Shown piece after piece: positions 1 to 7,363 of a stretch of DNA of 64,000 bases. Made by a program: the position numbers and the translations under genes. This stretch comes from Pseudorhodoplanes sp. (GTDB lineage Bacteria > Pseudomonadota > Alphaproteobacteria > Rhizobiales > Xanthobacteraceae). How positions within the stretch are numbered: the first letter of the stretch is position 1; every line of letters begins with the position of its first letter. Where the stretch lies: assembly GCA_032027085.1 (NCBI GenBank), contig JAVSMS010000001.1, positions 653,711 through 717,710 of the forward strand, read 5' to 3'. The notes beneath the pieces were generated by a model that was given only the letters and a program-made list of their open reading frames with translations, ran no database searches and was not told where the DNA came from.

Positions 1-2120
1 TCACGGTCGTTCAGCCGCACCAGAACGGGATTTTCACAGCTGGACGCTTTCCCGAACACCACCGCATGTCGCGCCTCAAGGCTTGGCAGAACCCCTGCAT
101 AATCGCCGCCAATGTAGTTCGACAGAAATTCTTTGCCGGTGTCGTCGAAAGTCCGCATTGCAAAAATAGTGTTGCACTGGTTCAGGATCGTCTTCGTTAC
201 GTTGGCGGTCCGCTGCGTGATCAACAGGCAACCGAGGCCGTACTTGCGACCCTGCAGGATGGCGCGAGCGGTGCGCGCCGTCGCCGCTTTGTCGCCCTCG
301 GCGACGACGGAGTTCCACTCCGGCACCAGTGAGTGCGCCTCCTCATAGACCAAGCACAGCCGGCCCTGATCGGTCATGCCGAGTTCCTGGCACACCCTAA
401 GCGCGGCATCCGAGATTAAGGCCGTGATCTCGGTCGGTGTGAGCGACGCCATCGACGCGTCGCCTGTTTTGAAATCCTTGAAACCAGTCTGCCGCCACAC
501 ATCAAATGCCGCAGGATTCACGATACGGAGATTGCGCCCATTTTCTGCCAGGAATGCGCGAATTTGCTCGGTCAGCTTCTGCGAGAAGCGTCCAACGGTA
601 CCGCCTTCCTCACGGTTCTGTTCGACCTTTCCCCGACCAGAAACCGCGTGGAGTTCATCGTCCAGTTGCTTTTCACGCGCTACGTCAACAAAATCCCCAA
701 GCAGCTTGGCGTACTGATCGGTGAGGTCGAGGCAGATCACCTTGATGCCATCGGCGATCATGCGCTCGACGAGCTCAATGGCGAGGTAGCTTTTGCCGAT
801 TCCGAGGATGCCAAGGACGGCGGTGTTATGCGTCACGGCCGCCGACATATCGAGACCGACGCCGAAGCCCGTATTTGGAAAATGGCCGATGGTCGAGGCT
901 GCGTCCGCCGCGCCCTCGTCGTCGCGCAGGAACACCGGCGCATTCATGCGCGGCAGCCATTTCACCGGCATGAATTTTCCAGCATCCGCATCCCATCGGC
1001 CGATCTTGCGCGCCTTGGCCCGCGCATAGCCGTAGGTGTTCTTCTGCTGGACGATCTCCTCGCGCGTCAGTCCGTCGATAATTTGAAAAATGACAAAGGA
1101 ATCACCAATCCGCGCTTCCACCAACCGACCTTCGGATAAGTTGCGCTCCTCGGTCACCTCAAAGAGGACGTAGTCCAGACTTGTGTCGCTGACGACTACA
1201 CCGCAAAGGCGATTGATCCACTGTATGGCAGGGACGTCCTCTAACTCCTCAGGGGTCGCGTTCAGCGCCAGCGCAGTCGCCGCGCCCTTCGAGTCCGGGA
1301 GGTTCCCGATCCTGTCCCGCAACCCGGCAGGCAGCGGAGCGGTCAGAACTCGCAGCAGATTTCCCTCGTCGCGACCGACATAGTTGAGCGCCACGCCAAG
1401 CATCCATGGTCCGTGGCTATCGGCGACCACGAGCGGCGTTCCCCGCTCCACATCGGCCTGACCCAGCTGCCGGACAAGCACGATGCCGGGCGACTGGTGT
1501 GCCGCAATCGCCCCCACGATCTGATCGGGACGGAGGACATTCCAATGCTCGCGCGCCCATCCAACGAAGTCCAAGACGGACTCTACCGGGCGCAGCACAA
1601 CGATCATGGCCCACGTGCTCAGGATCGCGATGACCTCGTGGGGGCGGGTACGGTGAAACAGCCAGACGCATAGCAGGATCACGATAGTGAAGATGACGAC
1701 TGGGCTGCCAAGGCTGCGAACAGCCCTATCGGCGAGGCGGACGACGGGGCGGGTTTCCATACCGATGGGGGGCCGGACCAGCAGGACGAGGACGGAGACG
1801 AGGCAAACGGCTGCGCAGAACACAATTGTCGTCCAAAGCAGCCACCAGTCGGCGCTCTCCGGCTGAACCGCGAGTGAGCTCGCGAGCAATGCCGCCAGCG
1901 CCATGAAAGAGTTCGTGGCCGAGTCCGCGGGCGGCGTGAAATGCGGGTTCAGGAGACGACTGCCGAACAGGAGGCTGGCGAACCCACTTAAGAGCCAGAT
2001 GGAGTTTTCGTTAGGGGTGAAGCCCGAGACGACAACGAAGTACTGGATGATGCCGAGCACAGCCGCGTAGATCGCCAACCCGGCGACGCGGTGTTGCGTT
2101 TGCCGTTTTCCCTTCTCCAA
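1..2120 (-). CDS. Membrane-anchored HerA/DUF87-type ATPase (3' end beyond window)
   Basis: The frame is open leftwards from a TTG start at 2120 to the window edge (706 codons). The start is chosen because a strong ribosome site (GGAGGGGGC, 2125-2133) sits just upstream and no ATG fits. The first ~200 residues hold several hydrophobic, membrane-like segments, for example a stretch reading AIYAAVLGIIQYFVVV. The ATPase part follows: Walker A GILGIGKS at residues 437-444, Walker B with the HerA-style acidic pair in LCLVYEEAHSLVPEW (E593-E594), and the arginine-bearing segment LLITQRTANV. These motifs define the HerA/FtsK-like P-loop helicases, which form hexamers that pump DNA. In defence islands HerA proteins pair with nuclease or Sir2-type effectors; any direct partner here would lie left of position 1. 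It is divergent from the HEPN and nuclease genes and sits inside a tRNA-linked element. The ATPase assignment is firm; a defence role is inferred. Confidence 0.85.
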   Translation of the reverse strand, partial: MEKGKRQTQHRVAGLAIYAAVLGIIQYFVVVSGFTPNENSIWLLSGFASLLFGSRLLNPHFTPPADSATNSFMALAALLASSLAVQPESADWWLLWTTIVFCAAVCLVSVLVLLVRPPIGMETRPVVRLADRAVRSLGSPVVIFTIVILLCVWLFHRTRPHEVIAILSTWAMIVVLRPVESVLDFVGWAREHWNVLRPDQIVGAIAAHQSPGIVLVRQLGQADVERGTPLVVADSHGPWMLGVALNYVGRDEGNLLRVLTAPLPAGLRDRIGNLPDSKGAATALALNATPEELEDVPAIQWINRLCGVVVSDTSLDYVLFEVTEERNLSEGRLVEARIGDSFVIFQIIDGLTREEIVQQKNTYGYARAKARKIGRWDADAGKFMPVKWLPRMNAPVFLRDDEGAADAASTIGHFPNTGFGVGLDMSAAVTHNTAVLGILGIGKSYLAIELVERMIADGIKVICLDLTDQYAKLLGDFVDVAREKQLDDELHAVSGRGKVEQNREEGGTVGRFSQKLTEQIRAFLAENGRNLRIVNPAAFDVWRQTGFKDFKTGDASMASLTPTEITALISDAALRVCQELGMTDQGRLCLVYEEAHSLVPEWNSVVAEGDKAATARTARAILQGRKYGLGCLLITQRTANVTKTILNQCNTIFAMRTFDDTGKEFLSNYIGGDYAGVLPSLEARHAVVFGKASSCENPVLVRLNDR

Positions 2121-2427
2121 ATGCGCCCCCTCCAAACTATTCACTGAATACTTATCGGCGTCGCGCGTCTCAGCAATGAACTCTGAAAGAAAAACTACCC
2201 CACACAAAGATGAGGCGGCAGTATAGATTGTGTCAACCTCGCAGGGAAATGACGCAAGGGAGATCAGGCTGGCAGCTCCCGTTCAACCCGGCAATTTCGT
2301 AAAAGCCGAGGCATCGAGGCTTACGACCTGTAGGTGACGGACGCGGTGAAATCCGCCATTTCGTGGCCGATCCACAGATCAGCGGGCCTCGTAACGTCAT
2401 GCGCGTGCTTCGGGGGACAGCGGCGAC

Positions 2428-2517
2428 ATGAACGCCGTCGAGATCGTAGAAGGCATATCGGAGCTGGCCGAGCAGCCGTCCCCGAAATACGCCTACGACC
2501 TAGAGCCGCTCGCCTGA
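2428..2517 (+). pseudogene. Possible N-terminal remnant of a DNA methyltransferase gene
   Basis: A 29-codon frame beginning MNAVEIVEGISELAEQP lies in the 440-bp gap between the HerA-like ATPase gene and the next gene. The opening residues resemble, from memory, the N-terminus of a class of SAM-dependent DNA methyltransferases found in defence islands, but the similarity stops after about 17 residues and the frame closes at 2517. No methylase motif follows. It may be decayed cargo of the element or chance. The rest of the gap (2121-2427 and 2518-2563) shows no further gene; it must hold the divergent promoters. Confidence 0.25.
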
Positions 2518-2563
2518 TTCAGTGCGAACGTGATTCCAGGGCAGAGTAGGCACAGGCTAGTAA

Positions 2564-3586
2564 ATGACGATGTTCAAAGAGACCATCCGCACCCTCCGCC
2601 AGCTGGAAGGACAGACGCAGGTTTCTGTCCCGATCAGCGACGATGAGGAAGGCTACTTTGATCGCGAGTGCCCCTCCGCGGAATGTCTGTTCCAGTTCAA
2701 GATTTTTGGTGAGGATTGGAAGGAAAAGGTCAGGGATAAGGAGGTGTTCTGTCCCAACTGCGGCCACACAGCAGATTCCGGCAGTTGGTGGACGCAGGAG
2801 CAACTTAAGTACGCCAAGCAGGCGGCGCTTGCCCAGGTGAAGGCCAGTATAAGCGGCGCCTTGCGCCGTGATGCCAACCAATGGAATCGGCGGCAGCCGC
2901 GCAACAGCTTCATTTCCATGACGATGAAGGTCGATAACCGGCCGCAGCATGTGCCGCTGCCGTCCGCGGCGACCGAGCCTATGCGGCTCAAGATTACGTG
3001 CCCCACATGCGCCTGCCGCTATGCGGTGATTGGCGCGGCTTACTTCTGCCCGGCTTGCGGTCACAACGCGGCCGACCAGCAGTTTGCGCTGACCATCGGC
3101 GGAATCAGACAATCACTTGACGCGCTCGACGCAGTACGCGCCGCCGTCGCCGACCGCGATACGGCTGAAAACACCGTCCGATTGATTGTGGAAAACGGTC
3201 TGCAGAACGCGGTCACGGCCTTCCAGAGATGCGCCGAAGCCATCTTTGCTGGCTTACCCTCTGCGCCAAAAGCACGTCGCAACGCTTTCCAAAATCTGAG
3301 CGAGGGCGATCAGCTTTGGCAGGGCGCAACCGGGAAGGCGTACATCGATCATCTGGCTTCCAACGAATTGGCTGACTTGCAGCGCGCGTTCCAGCTGCGG
3401 CACTTGCTGGCGCACACGCAAGGACTTGTCGATCAGGACTATCTCTCCAAGAGCGGTGATACGCGGTACAGGATCGGCCAGCGTATTGTCGTGCGAGCCG
3501 ATATGGTGCGCGATGTAACAGTCCTAATCGAAAAGCTGATTGGCGGCCTTCAGGCCGACGCAGGCGCGGCAGCGAGGCAGAAATGA
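2564..3586 (+). CDS. Double zinc-ribbon protein with C-terminal HEPN-like domain
   Basis: This 340-residue protein has two C4 zinc-ribbon modules: C36/C41 (CPSAEC) with C63/C66 (CPNC), and C146/C149 (CPTC) with C162/C165 (CPAC). They are separated by a basic, Gln/Arg-rich linker. The C-terminal half is helical and carries QLRHLLAHTQGLVD, in which R279-x4-H284 fits the R-x(4-6)-H active-site motif of HEPN RNases, followed by a Val-Asp as in the RiboL-PSP-HEPN group. There is no signal peptide or membrane segment, so it should be cytoplasmic. The next gene, a restriction-endonuclease-like protein, starts 10 bp downstream, so the two are probably co-transcribed. The ribosome site is weak (AGG upstream of the ATG at 2564). 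The zinc ribbons are clear. The HEPN assignment rests on the motif and helical context, and an RNA-targeting or abortive-infection role is inference. Confidence 0.7.
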   Translation: MTMFKETIRTLRQLEGQTQVSVPISDDEEGYFDRECPSAECLFQFKIFGEDWKEKVRDKEVFCPNCGHTADSGSWWTQEQLKYAKQAALAQVKASISGALRRDANQWNRRQPRNSFISMTMKVDNRPQHVPLPSAATEPMRLKITCPTCACRYAVIGAAYFCPACGHNAADQQFALTIGGIRQSLDALDAVRAAVADRDTAENTVRLIVENGLQNAVTAFQRCAEAIFAGLPSAPKARRNAFQNLSEGDQLWQGATGKAYIDHLASNELADLQRAFQLRHLLAHTQGLVDQDYLSKSGDTRYRIGQRIVVRADMVRDVTVLIEKLIGGLQADAGAAARQK

Positions 3587-3596
3587 TGGTCGCGCA

Positions 3597-4760
3597 ATGC
3601 CTCCGATAAACTACACGCGAACGGTCAATCCACTGCAATTCGAGGCCTTGGAGCCAAAGCGGTTCGAGGACCTGGTTCGCCAGCTCATCTACGACTTCCG
3701 AGTATGGCGACAGCTTGAGGCGACCGGAAGGTCTGGATCGGATGATGGCTTTGATGCGCGAGGTTGTGAGATCGTCGGGACCGGGTCAGCGGCGGAGCCT
3801 GTAGAAGAAGAAGGCGAACCATCAGTCCTAGAAGGAACGGACCGAATTTGGCTTGTTCAATGCAAGCGCGAGAAGTCCATCGGCCCTTCGAAGCTTATCG
3901 GCTATCTCGACACCATTCCCAAATCCGAGCGTCCGAATCTGTACGGCGTCATACTCGCCGCACCCGCAGATTTTTCCAAGAAGGCGCGCGATCAATTCAG
4001 GGACTGGTGTTCTGAAAACGGAATCTCCGAATGCTACCTGTGGGGCAGGGCCGAGCTCGAAGACGCGCTCTTCCAGCCCAAGAACGATCATCTTCTCTTT
4101 GCCTATTTCGGCTTGTCCCTCTCCATTCGGAAGCGCTCCGATCAAGCGAGGCTAAGGGCGCAGACGACGATCAAGCGCAAGATCAAACGCGCGTTCAGCG
4201 ACAAAATCGAAGTGCTATTCCGCGACGTTGATGATCGCGAATATCCATTCGCACACCGCGAGAGAGACGATCACCGATGGTGGGTGTACCGCAACCTAAA
4301 ACTCACGTTCCGGGGTCTGGAATGTGAGGCCAAACGGTTCTTCGCCTTCATCGACGATGACCAGACCCACTGGGACTATGCCAACGTACTCGATGATGCA
4401 TCGCTAAGCTCGCACAGCGATCCTTGGCGGGGAAAGGACGGTGGCTCCCCCGAGAGACAAGAGCTTTGGGAGTTTTGGTCATCACTCCCGCGCGGTAATC
4501 AGGCGTGGCTGATCGTCAAGGGCGTCATCGCACTCGACAACATCCTCGAAGTGGACGAGATCGGCGACGACATCACCGGCAGCGTCCATATCTATGTGCG
4601 TACCGATCCCAGTCAGCCCCATCCGTTCTCGAATTTCTATCCCGAGTTCGCCACGGACGGATGGAGCGGTGCTCGCTCCACCGAACCCAGTCCCACTAAC
4701 CGTATCGAAAAATTCCCGGCAAAGTTTCGGAAGCCTATGCCCGGTCAATCACAGACCTGA
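3597..4760 (+). CDS. Mrr-like restriction endonuclease (PD-(D/E)XK fold)
   Basis: A 387-residue protein when started at the ATG at 3597, 10 bp after the previous stop; a longer start at 3540 would overlap the upstream gene by 47 bp. The N-terminal 110 residues match the Mrr_cat/PD-(D/E)XK pattern: helix FEDLVRQLIYDF (residues 23-34), the metal-binding Asp in SDDGFDARG (D53), and the Q-x-K motif in WLVQCKRE (Q88, K90). The remaining ~280 residues have no family I recognise; they are rich in charged and aromatic residues and may serve target recognition or regulation. Mrr-type enzymes are type IV restriction nucleases or effectors of multi-gene defence systems. No methylase gene accompanies it, which favours a type IV or complex-system role. 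The nuclease fold is well supported; the substrate is unknown. Confidence 0.8.
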   Translation: MPPINYTRTVNPLQFEALEPKRFEDLVRQLIYDFRVWRQLEATGRSGSDDGFDARGCEIVGTGSAAEPVEEEGEPSVLEGTDRIWLVQCKREKSIGPSKLIGYLDTIPKSERPNLYGVILAAPADFSKKARDQFRDWCSENGISECYLWGRAELEDALFQPKNDHLLFAYFGLSLSIRKRSDQARLRAQTTIKRKIKRAFSDKIEVLFRDVDDREYPFAHRERDDHRWWVYRNLKLTFRGLECEAKRFFAFIDDDQTHWDYANVLDDASLSSHSDPWRGKDGGSPERQELWEFWSSLPRGNQAWLIVKGVIALDNILEVDEIGDDITGSVHIYVRTDPSQPHPFSNFYPEFATDGWSGARSTEPSPTNRIEKFPAKFRKPMPGQSQT

Positions 4761-5360
4761 TGCGCCGCCGAGGCCGAGCAAATCGTGTCGGTCCTGCCGA
4801 GGCGGCTATAAGCTTGCTCAAAACGGATCAGGAACTGACCGCGCCAGGACTGATCGCCAAGTGCCAGCCATGCTAGCGCATCATCGCCCTGCCGGCGCCA
4901 GCGGCAAGTCAAATCCTTCGTATACGAATGCGCCAGAGATCCCGTTCCGATACGCCGGGCCAGTTTTGGACGCCTATCCCCGACTCAGGGGGTCAATATT
5001 GCAGGCCCAATAAACAGCCCGCGTGGTTCATAGCCCCAATGGCACAGGCCGGGCGCGCCGCGCGCCCGGAAAGAAGATTCTTCGCGCGACAACCGACAAA
5101 AATATCCAGCGGCGGAGACCTGTTCGCGTACACTTGCGGGATGGCAGCTGGAAAAATTGGTCCTGAGACGCCGGGAAAGGCTCTTCTCAGAGGTCTCGAG
5201 GACCAAGCTGGGAGGAAATGCTTCGCGCGCCTCCCTAGTGCTGTAAGGTCCGTTTGCGGCCGTTACAAATACATTGCGTCCAAACTTCGCTCATGACGTG
5301 GCGCGCCCGGACTACGCGGCGATTGATCCGGGGTTTGACCCCGGCGACGAGCGCTTTCCG
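4761..5360. other. 600-bp gap without a convincing gene
   Basis: Short open frames exist on both strands (for example 4928-5296 plus, 4985-5206 minus), but none has a ribosome site, family signature or protein-like composition. A short hairpin, GGGGT-TTG-ACCCC, lies near 5330-5342. The stretch sits between the endonuclease gene and the 3' end of the integrase gene and probably holds convergent termination signals or decayed element DNA. Confidence 0.5.
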
Positions 5361-7166
5361 TTAAGAGTTCAGACCACGCAGCCACGGCTTCAGCACAGTC
5401 AGTTGTCCGCAATCCGCCTTTGTCTTCGCATTCAGCAGGACCTCACGCATTTTCTTGATTACAGGAGGCTCAAGGGCCGCGATCGCAGCGGATTGTTCCG
5501 GAGAAAGCATTCCCTTCCTGCCATATCCATCAGGCACTGAACCGACATGGCCGAGAATACGATTGCGAGTGCGCTGCGCTACTGCTTCGTTATCGAGGAG
5601 GTCCGCCATCAAATGGCGAGTGCCATACAAGGTGAGATCCTTGCGAGTGATCTCAAGCAGGCCTTTCACATACTGCCAGGATTTCGTCATGGGCTGTCCC
5701 CAGCGCAGTTCGCCGGTCGGCTTTTTATAAGGCTGCCACTGGGGGAACAGGCGGTCGATCTTATTTTTCTGCAGCTCCCAAACTCGGTCCAGCAAACCCA
5801 AGTCGATCAAGAGCGGGTGAATTGGAACGACGCGTGCCGAAGACTGCGTCTTGAATTTGCGCTGATCCTTCAGGGCTACGCGCCCGGCACGAGCATCAAA
5901 AGGTCGCAAATCAAAGAAGAAAAATTCACCGTCCGTCACCACATCGGCACAACGCAATTGCCCAACCTCACCTGCACGCATGCCGGTCAAGATCAGAATA
6001 AGAAAGCCCCAGTAGATATGGTTTTGCAGGAAATAGCCGCCCTTTGTCCACATCCGACTAGTTCCTCGGCACCCCGTAAATAAAGGAAGATTTACAAGGG
6101 CGAGCAATTCATCGTCCTCGAAGGCGTCCCGGGGCAACGCAGTCAGGTTTTCTGGACTGATCTTTTTAAAAGTGGGTTTGGGCCCGTGAAAGTAACCGTT
6201 GTCGATCGCCCAACCGAAGAACGCACGTAAAGCAATATGGTATGATTTGATCGTCGTCACGGTCATACGCTCGAGCTTGTCCCAACCATTCGCCTTGGCG
6301 AACTTGAAGCGAGACATCAGCGTTACCCGATCACCCGTTGGCAATCCTTTTCTGTTCGGGATTTCGGGGAGCGCATCGTCGATCTTTTGGAAATCTGAAG
6401 GCGTCATCGAACTCAGCTCGGGGTCACCCAGCAACTTGATGACAAATGAAATCAGCGGCTCATACTCGCCGCGCGCCCTGTCGTCATCGTTGAGTTTATA
6501 CTTATCTTCGTAAAACAACTTGGCTACTTGCGATAACCGAAGTGCCGACTCGGCCGGAAGCGGACCAGGCATTGCCTCCTGTTTCCCATTAATCGGTCGG
6601 AGTTCGCTCAAGTGCGGTGCCACCGAGACGCCGTCCGTGCTCCGCATTTGATGCATCAATGGGCTGTGGGTCCATCCATGGCCGATCGCCTCGCCCGCGT
6701 CCGCCCTGCCACGTTCGTATTCACGACGTTGTCCAGCGCGGATCAGACACTCTTCGCTGGTCTTATTCTGGTTGACGAAATCGACCCAGTTGCTCGCAAA
6801 CGAATGAAAGCGCTGGCAGAATGAATAGCCACGCTCCTGCGAGCGCACGATAAAGCTCCTAACCTGGTTCTCGAACGCAACGCGCTCCGCCAACTCTCGC
6901 TCGGTCACCGGTGCGCCTCGGCCGGAATAGGCTACGAGCCGTGAATGAAGCACCGTCCCGAGCGTTTCGAGGTCGGGTGCATCAATGAGTTCGCAGGCCC
7001 AGCCGAGACTGTCCACAAGTCGCCTCCTTGCTTCCGCATAGTTGGACGTCCTCAAGGACGCCCTCAAAAGCGCGCGTCCGTAAAGATCGGCGGCGACTTT
7101 TCCCAGCCGAATTTGGAGGTAATAACGACCGCCATCTCGGCGGGTCAGATAAGGCGCGCGCGCCAT
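5361..7166 (-). CDS. Tyrosine recombinase / integrase of the tRNA-Met element
   Basis: A 601-residue tyrosine recombinase when started at the ATG at 7166, which has AGGAG seven bases upstream; the longer frame to 7217 lacks such a site. The N-terminal ~60 residues (YLTRRDGGRYYLQIRLG) form the DUF6538-like arm-binding region. The central part (about 200-330) is the core-binding, SAM-like domain. The catalytic part shows Arg I in TGMRAGEV (R397), Arg II with its neighbour in YGTRHLMADLL (R517), the His of ILGHVGS (H540) and the Tyr nucleophile in DGYGRKG (Y548). The usual His three residues before Arg II is not seen (Tyr/Gly there). The gene lies 120 bp beyond the 3' end of tRNA-Met and reads away from it, the normal layout for elements that integrate into a tRNA 3' end. 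It most likely catalyses insertion and excision of the island to its left. Confidence 0.92.
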   Translation of the reverse strand: MARAPYLTRRDGGRYYLQIRLGKVAADLYGRALLRASLRTSNYAEARRRLVDSLGWACELIDAPDLETLGTVLHSRLVAYSGRGAPVTERELAERVAFENQVRSFIVRSQERGYSFCQRFHSFASNWVDFVNQNKTSEECLIRAGQRREYERGRADAGEAIGHGWTHSPLMHQMRSTDGVSVAPHLSELRPINGKQEAMPGPLPAESALRLSQVAKLFYEDKYKLNDDDRARGEYEPLISFVIKLLGDPELSSMTPSDFQKIDDALPEIPNRKGLPTGDRVTLMSRFKFAKANGWDKLERMTVTTIKSYHIALRAFFGWAIDNGYFHGPKPTFKKISPENLTALPRDAFEDDELLALVNLPLFTGCRGTSRMWTKGGYFLQNHIYWGFLILILTGMRAGEVGQLRCADVVTDGEFFFFDLRPFDARAGRVALKDQRKFKTQSSARVVPIHPLLIDLGLLDRVWELQKNKIDRLFPQWQPYKKPTGELRWGQPMTKSWQYVKGLLEITRKDLTLYGTRHLMADLLDNEAVAQRTRNRILGHVGSVPDGYGRKGMLSPEQSAAIAALEPPVIKKMREVLLNAKTKADCGQLTVLKPWLRGLNS

Positions 7167-7286
7167 GCCCTCGCTCCTGGGGCCGAATCCCTGTGTCACC
7201 TCGCAGTGAGACGTCACACAGAAGTCCGGAACCCCTTTGAGGGCGAACCATTTGAATTCAAAAGCTTTTTAGGCAGTTTGCGAATT

Positions 7287-7363
7287 TGGTAGCGGAGGAC
7301 GGATTCGAACCGCCGACACAAGGATTATGATTCCTCTGCTCTAACCACCTGAGCTACTCCGCC
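7287..7363 (-). tRNA. tRNA-Met (CAU), elongator type
   Basis: Read on the minus strand, the 77 bases fold into a full cloverleaf: acceptor GGCGGAG pairs with CTCCGCT (first pair G-U), the D-arm is GCTC/GAGC, the anticodon stem GAGGA/TCCTT carries loop ATCATAA with anticodon CAT, the T-arm has the TTCGAAT loop, and the 3' ACCA is encoded. The first base pair and the D-arm fit elongator rather than initiator tRNA-Met; a tRNA-Ile2 with a modified CAU cannot be excluded from sequence alone. The integrase gene starts 120 bp past the 3' end, so this tRNA is the probable attachment site of the element. Confidence 0.95.

Follow-up and report, generated by a model that had tools for sequence, protein, structure and literature searches.

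A probable integrated element at a tRNA-Met gene of Pseudorhodoplanes sp. carries an Hma system and three defence-type genes, among them a widely distributed zinc-ribbon protein with a suggested HEPN half

The locus

The DNA analysed here (the window, 64,000 nucleotides) covers bases 653711-717710 of the single-contig, 4.97-Mb genome of Pseudorhodoplanes sp., and its left-hand end holds a tRNA-Met(CAU) gene, a tyrosine recombinase and three genes of defence-type families (Table 1). All five features had been named in an initial annotation made from the letters of the DNA, and all five were recovered at or near the places it had assigned to them. The gene for the membrane-anchored HerA-type ATPase is divergent from that for the zinc-ribbon HEPN protein, hereafter HEPN-ZR, with 356 bp between the two starts. 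HEPN-ZR and the Mrr-like frame lie on one strand and 10 bp apart, so that a predicted operon of the two is plausible; no sigma-70-type promoter pattern was found at window positions 2100-5400.

Table 1. Features of the locus. Positions are those of the window unless marked as genome positions; zero and negative values lie to the left of the window. Identifiers beginning with L and G are our own for loci and genomes.
Feature	Position	Strand	Details
Hma system: SNF2 helicase, DUF1156 methylase, DUF499 ATPase	genome 637030-646849 (L005:3031-12850)		outside the window
HmaA	genome 637030-640593		PADLOC 2081 bits
DUF1156 methylase, HmaB-type	genome, about 641077-644001		Pfam DUF1156 95 bits; HmaB identity by Pfam only
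HmaC	genome, in frame 643820-646849		PADLOC 1438 bits
HerA/DUF87 ATPase, membrane-anchored	2207 to -123	minus	776 aa from TTG start; Pfam DUF87 and PADLOC
HEPN-ZR: two N-terminal zinc ribbons and C-terminal HEPN-like half	2564..3586	plus	340 aa
Mrr-type PD-(D/E)XK nuclease-like protein	3597..4760	plus	387 aa; 10 bp 3' of HEPN-ZR
Tyrosine recombinase	5361..7217	minus	618 aa; DUF6538 N-terminus; phrog_1 integrase 84 bits
Putative right attachment-site repeat, 22 bp	7282..7303	none	last 17 nt of tRNA-Met and 5 nt beyond
tRNA-Met(CAU), presumed integration target	7287..7363	minus

A probable integrated, mobilisable element

The second copy of the tRNA 3' end proposed in the initial annotation does exist: an exact 22-bp repeat lies at genome positions 635658-635679 (window -18052 to -18031), the sole other same-strand match of at least 12 bases to window 7261-7363 in the stretch searched (genome 534000-717710). 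The two repeats frame 25,356 bp. With the tRNA 3' end repeated exactly at this distance, the whole 25.3 kb is probably one integrated, mobilisable element, of which window 1-7303 would form the right quarter; its own tyrosine recombinase most likely placed it at the 3' end of tRNA-Met. An integrase at a tRNA gene and direct repeats, two of the marks of an integrative mobilisable element, are both present, and the repeats give likely borders for a defence-carrying element. The G+C content is 0.593 inside the element versus 0.619 outside, a small difference. No clean empty site was found in relatives, and the left flank is not simply syntenic with the flank of the relatives' tRNA: in one relative (G681), about 7 kb separate the tRNA from genes matching our genome's 609.5-614.5 kb, with other genes in between.

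Reading leftward beyond the window, as had been recommended, revealed the 3' end of HerA, a relaxase-like gene, a primase and an Hma system. From the left repeat the order is HmaA, the DUF1156 methylase, HmaC, an IS-type integrase-core gene, RepB_primase (82 bits), a ribbon-helix-helix protein of CopG type, the relaxase-like gene with LPD7, HerA, HEPN-ZR, the Mrr-like gene and the recombinase. The relaxase-like gene scores 22.0 bits against Pfam Relaxase, just under the cut-off of 24.6, and 45.2 bits against LPD7, over the cut-off of that family; together with the CopG-type protein and the RepB-type primase it would provide mobilisation and replication functions. Phage origin was considered and rejected, since neither HEPN-ZR nor the Mrr-like protein has a match in 50,697 phage records, and viral contigs hold no relative of the latter. 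The IS-type integrase-core gene (L005:13298-14167) lies between the Hma system and the mobilisation genes, and a possible remnant of a similar IS was seen by eye near the left repeat (genome 636455-636997).

The defence-type island at the tRNA, beside its integrase, that the initial annotation had supposed from the window is supported, and it also includes the Hma genes outside the window. Hma was put forward as a candidate defence system on the basis of 1,638 instances (PMC8565338), and the element holds HmaA, an HmaB-type gene and HmaC in order in one locus, a further instance with no notable difference from the system as outlined in that source. The defence cargo would thus consist of Hma (HmaA, HmaB, HmaC) and three genes that were probably acquired independently, for the membrane HerA, HEPN-ZR and the Mrr-like protein. 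The reading as a whole, that is, one 25.3-kb element with independent cargo and a HEPN-ZR that acts alone, is our preferred one, with a probability of roughly 0.68.

The HerA-type ATPase

The full HerA frame ends 124 bp left of the window, and the first 735 of its 776 residues served as the query in searches. It matches DUF87 at 38 bits (cut-off 23) and the PADLOC HerA model at 81 bits, has a Walker A motif (GILGIGKS), a candidate Walker B (LVYEE) and four transmembrane-like segments within its first 210 residues, and reaches the cut-off of none of the NCBIfam HerA equivalogs. The TTG start is uncertain, as full-length relatives align only from residue 27-57 on. HerA/FtsK-type ATPases are coupled to nucleases in known anti-invader systems, as described in PMC10853773. 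The neighbours here are HEPN-ZR and the relaxase-like gene, among which Pfam shows none of Sir2, DUF4297 and NurA, so that the locus does not belong with Sir2-HerA, DUF4297-HerA or NurA-HerA.

It is also conceivable, though we consider it unlikely, that this HerA is part of the element's own transfer or maintenance module rather than a defence protein. Some 0.7 kb to the left of HerA, and convergent with it, is the relaxase-like gene; 338 plasmid records match HerA (just one over at least 80% of its length, and 28 of the 40 matches listed only over residues 533-734), and the neighbours of its relatives in two genomes (G662 and G519) read as chromosomal housekeeping genes. Against this, AbiE genes lie 2.5 kb upstream of the closest relative found, which is on an Aminobacter plasmid and 80% identical, and reverse-transcriptase genes lie downstream of it, while a relative on an Arcobacter plasmid is surrounded by R-M and SLATT genes, with no relaxase annotated in either stretch; nor do any T4SS or VirB4 families rise above cut-off among the matches. 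HerA may thus serve either defence or the upkeep of the element.

Several arrangements of its relatives may be recorded here. On the Aminobacter plasmid (L021:10055-16063) two reverse-transcriptase genes follow HerA on the same strand. On the Arcobacter plasmid (L022:5673-9920) the membrane HerA relative comes directly after a SLATT gene and a nucleotidyltransferase-looking gene, a layout that suggests a CBASS-like setting for this branch. On two Bradyrhizobium plasmids (L024:6554-9473 and L023:6600-9803) a DUF87 protein is divergent from a 318-aa hypothetical protein, in a layout like that of the window; BLAST found no match to HEPN-ZR or Mrr at these two loci.

The zinc-ribbon HEPN protein

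The eight cysteines of the two HEPN-ZR ribbons (C36/C41/C63/C66 and C146/C149/C162/C165) are invariant in an alignment of 63 members of the family, as are R279, H280, L282, H284, G287 and D290 in the C-terminal half. The motif RHLLAH at residues 279-284 fits the Rx4-6H pattern of the HEPN superfamily, including the polar residue (N, D or H) that follows the arginine according to the HEPN survey (PMC3710099). Pfam HEPN families give no match to the window protein, and the 17 Pfam families that one or more of the 63 members match at E<=0.01 include neither HEPN nor DUF4145 (PF13643); the NCBIfam HepT_toxin model reaches 13 bits over residues 181-249, against a cut-off of 60. A sequence search of the PDB returned just a Zn-ribbon protein (E 0.07). 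An AlphaFold2 model built from the 63 sequences (mean pLDDT 85.7, pTM 0.67) found HepT-type toxins in the PDB with Foldseek at probabilities up to 0.98, with E values of 0.06-0.5 and none at E<=0.001; the HepT chains 7ae6, 6m6u and 7bxo have probabilities of 0.94-0.98 (E 0.09-0.2), while a 14-3-3 protein heads the list at probability 0.23, and further 14-3-3 rows are interleaved at 0.23 or less. By this model, a HEPN fold is suggested for the C-terminal half.

Zinc ribbons often bind nucleic acid, and the protein might be an RNA-binding regulator, or antitoxin-like, with ribbons and HEPN half used for binding only. The zinc-ribbon part weakly matches a phage Lar-like restriction-alleviation family (phrog_6422, 28 bits), on account of which the role of HEPN-ZR may differ from that proposed below, and some HEPN classes lack catalysis according to the survey (PMC3710099). 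That source, however, reports loss of the motif from nucleotidyltransferase-fused HEPNs and from some MtlR proteins, whereas RHxLxH is kept in all 76 intact copies of HEPN-ZR (64 RHLLAH, 6 RHILAH, 6 other; four of the 80 copies, interrupted by a stop or with a length that is no multiple of three, were left out of this count) and its arginine and two histidines are invariant in the 63 aligned members. A purely binding role thus seems improbable.

Among the closest known systems is the PADLOC candidate PDC-M14 (PDC-M14A with PDC-M14B), all 63 members matching PDC-M14A. That model has 152 positions and ends ahead of the HEPN half, and its match to the window protein (61 bits) covers residues 18-168 only, that is, the zinc-ribbon half. 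PDC-M14B has no match in the whole of our genome, while as a control the model matches in 2 of 14 genomes; with this partner absent, membership in PDC-M14 was rejected. HepT, of the MntA-HepT (HEPN-MNT) pair, has, with Rx4H, the HEPN fold that is suggested for HEPN-ZR and gives the best HEPN matches of the structure model, but to our knowledge is without zinc ribbons, and there is no MNT nucleotidyltransferase beside HEPN-ZR, the adjacent HerA and Mrr-like proteins having no nucleotidyltransferase family matches. PD-T7-3 is likewise described as a single-protein defence system with a HEPN domain (PMC10952713, PMC10799925). Its model matches 1 of the 63 members weakly and the window protein not at all at E<=10, has no match in our genome and matches in 3 of 240 genomes of the class; a PD-T7-3 homologue (L185) has Rx4H near its N-terminus and no CxxC, unlike HEPN-ZR. 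Membership in PD-T7-3 was rejected on the lack of a model match and this difference in layout.

The Mrr-like protein

The Mrr-like protein of the window has no Pfam match at E<=1, but five aligned relatives match Mrr_cat at that threshold, the best at 2e-5. In the alignment of the six sequences G44, D49, G51, D53 and Q88-C89 are invariant and K90 is found in five; D53, Q88 and K90 would correspond to the D...QxK motif of Mrr-type nucleases. It reaches 17 bits against PADLOC PDC-M58A; the structure model is too poor for use (pLDDT 39.5), and a sequence search of the PDB returned nothing. Matches to the family are few (3 of 385 genomes of the class, our own included and one weak, and 3 plasmid records). 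The relatives have different neighbours, in one case a further restriction endonuclease and a VPA1262-type gene. The Mrr-like protein probably cuts foreign or modified DNA.

Three genes side by side

The initial annotation had proposed a joint function for HerA, HEPN-ZR and the Mrr-like protein, to be given up should the three genes fail to co-occur elsewhere, and the neighbour comparison went against it. In the flanks of 80 HEPN-ZR loci (48 of them with about 10 kb on each side, 59 with at least 3 kb on each) no HerA or Mrr homologue was found (tblastn, E<=1e-4), and none of 18 other loci, namely eight of HEPN-ZR (seven plasmids and G119), three of Mrr and seven of HerA, holds two of the three genes together. 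By sequence search, which very distant Mrr or HerA partners would escape, none of 51 genomes with HEPN-ZR (50 of the scanned loci and G119) has an Mrr homologue at E<=1e-3, with a query that as a control matches our genome and two others, and in one of the 51 there is a HerA of this type (E<=1e-20), in a frame of 749 aa whose match starts at residue 331. Among 385 genomes of the class HEPN-ZR is found in eight (our own included, some weak), Mrr in three and HerA in 73; the HerA matches span membrane part and core in six of the 73, our own included, and nearly all others concern the C-terminal core only (in G536, residues 46-249 only). Our genome is the only one of the 385 with two of HEPN-ZR, Mrr and full-length membrane HerA; C-terminal-only HerA matches occur in the HEPN-positive G308, G361 and G366 and the Mrr-positive G648. 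As the three genes are found apart from one another in other microbes, the likeliest reading is that they are independent cargo and not one new machine. A joint system was a tempting reading, but neighbouring genes of a defence island do not necessarily work together, and here the comparison of neighbourhoods tells them apart.

A two-gene system of HEPN-ZR and the Mrr-like protein (RNase with DNase, or toxin with regulator), to which HerA would be unrelated, would suit the 10-bp gap and shared strand as a functional pair in this lineage, and at one locus (L056) a different, Mrr-like-looking frame was seen by eye to overlap the 3' end of HEPN-ZR by 41 bp. The Mrr family of the window, however, is absent from the flanks compared at all 80 HEPN-ZR loci, the genes directly downstream of HEPN-ZR change between the 76 loci viewed, and the relatives of Mrr in Agrobacterium, on two Deinococcus plasmids and in G478 and G648 have no HEPN-ZR nearby, so that we hold such a pair to be doubtful, with a chance of little over one in ten. 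Least probable, and largely refuted, is one new multi-gene system, in which a membrane translocase would sense or pump DNA and license an RNase and a DNase: it would account for the contiguity of the trio, with its short gap and its divergent HerA, and recalls the ATPase-nuclease couplings described in PMC10853773, but it was rejected on the neighbour and genome searches above, which find the trio nowhere else, and the closest HerA relative found, in Aminobacter, has neither partner within about 10 kb.

Distribution, neighbours and proposed role of HEPN-ZR

Relatives of HEPN-ZR numbered 141 in a scan of genome contigs, and the best 80 were used here; the family ranges from Proteobacteria to an ANME-1 archaeon. 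Within the order it is found in 2 of 297 genomes, our own included, and of the 12 plasmid records that match it nine are typed as conjugative. Immediate neighbours vary between loci (76 of the 80 were viewed), and the commonest protein cluster other than HEPN-ZR itself, at whatever distance, is shared by no more than 9 of the 80. Two loci (L084 and L095) have HEPN-ZR after genes that read as type I R-M subunits.

Taking the longest frame of at least 200 aa within 2 kb on each side gave 96 near neighbours, which match 169 PADLOC families at E<=1e-15, while 68 proteins at least 6 kb away match 87. Among the 25 families listed for the near set are CapP and AriA (five proteins each), MADS, the CBASS cyclase and GajA (four each) and type ISP/IIG R-M (three); the 25 listed for the distant set have mostly one member each. 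AriA, GajA and CapP we take to stand for PARIS, Gabija and CBASS, respectively. The defence matches near HEPN-ZR are a tendency and not a measured enrichment, because the two sets are of unequal size, several models can be matched by a single ATPase and 25 families are listed for each set; since genes at least 6 kb away also match defence models, the island rather than the HEPN-ZR gene may drive part of the signal. There is no fixed partner for HEPN-ZR among these R-M, Gabija, CBASS and PARIS-type neighbours.

HEPN-ZR probably works alone, as a ribonuclease of the abortive-infection type: the HEPN half would cut RNA once the zinc-ribbon half meets a phage-borne signal, and the resulting abortive outcome would protect against phage. 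The best precedent for such a mechanism is, by analogy, BxaP, a single HEPN-superfamily protein (DUF4145) reported from several different defence loci, BREX and R-M among them, which by itself confers protection on E. coli, probably through abortive infection (PMC10799925). The two are built differently: in BxaP, as described there, DUF4145 is N-terminal and the C-terminus HEAT-like, whereas HEPN-ZR has its zinc ribbons first and its HEPN-like half last; PF13643 matches none of the 63 members. More tentatively, at somewhat less than even odds, HEPN-ZR may represent a widely spread family of stand-alone immune ribonucleases, its paired ribbons the phage sensor, that is plugged in as an effector beside unrelated systems (R-M, Gabija, CBASS, PARIS, Hma) and forms a second, suicidal layer when these fail. 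In the literature on HEPN defence proteins with zinc ribbons or fingers and on PDC-M14, a literature taken mostly from outside subscription papers and preprints, we found no description of the family. Conserved but fitted by no Pfam HEPN model, the family keeps its predicted catalytic residues and has no constant partner, and so lends itself well to a simple phage test of the single gene.

Some individual neighbourhoods of HEPN-ZR may also be mentioned. On the Sinorhizobium meliloti plasmid pSmeSM11a (L011:7742-10990) 27 bp separate it from an upstream gene with the annotation P-loop NTPase. In G119 (L009:11590-13183) and at L072 it is convergent with, and 43 bp from, a small gene that reads as TIR/ThsB-like, and ThsA_Macro is matched by one of the near neighbours scanned. 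At three loci (L037, L039 and L040, two of them alike) an 87-aa frame, perhaps a small regulator or antitoxin, overlaps the stop of HEPN-ZR by 4 bp.
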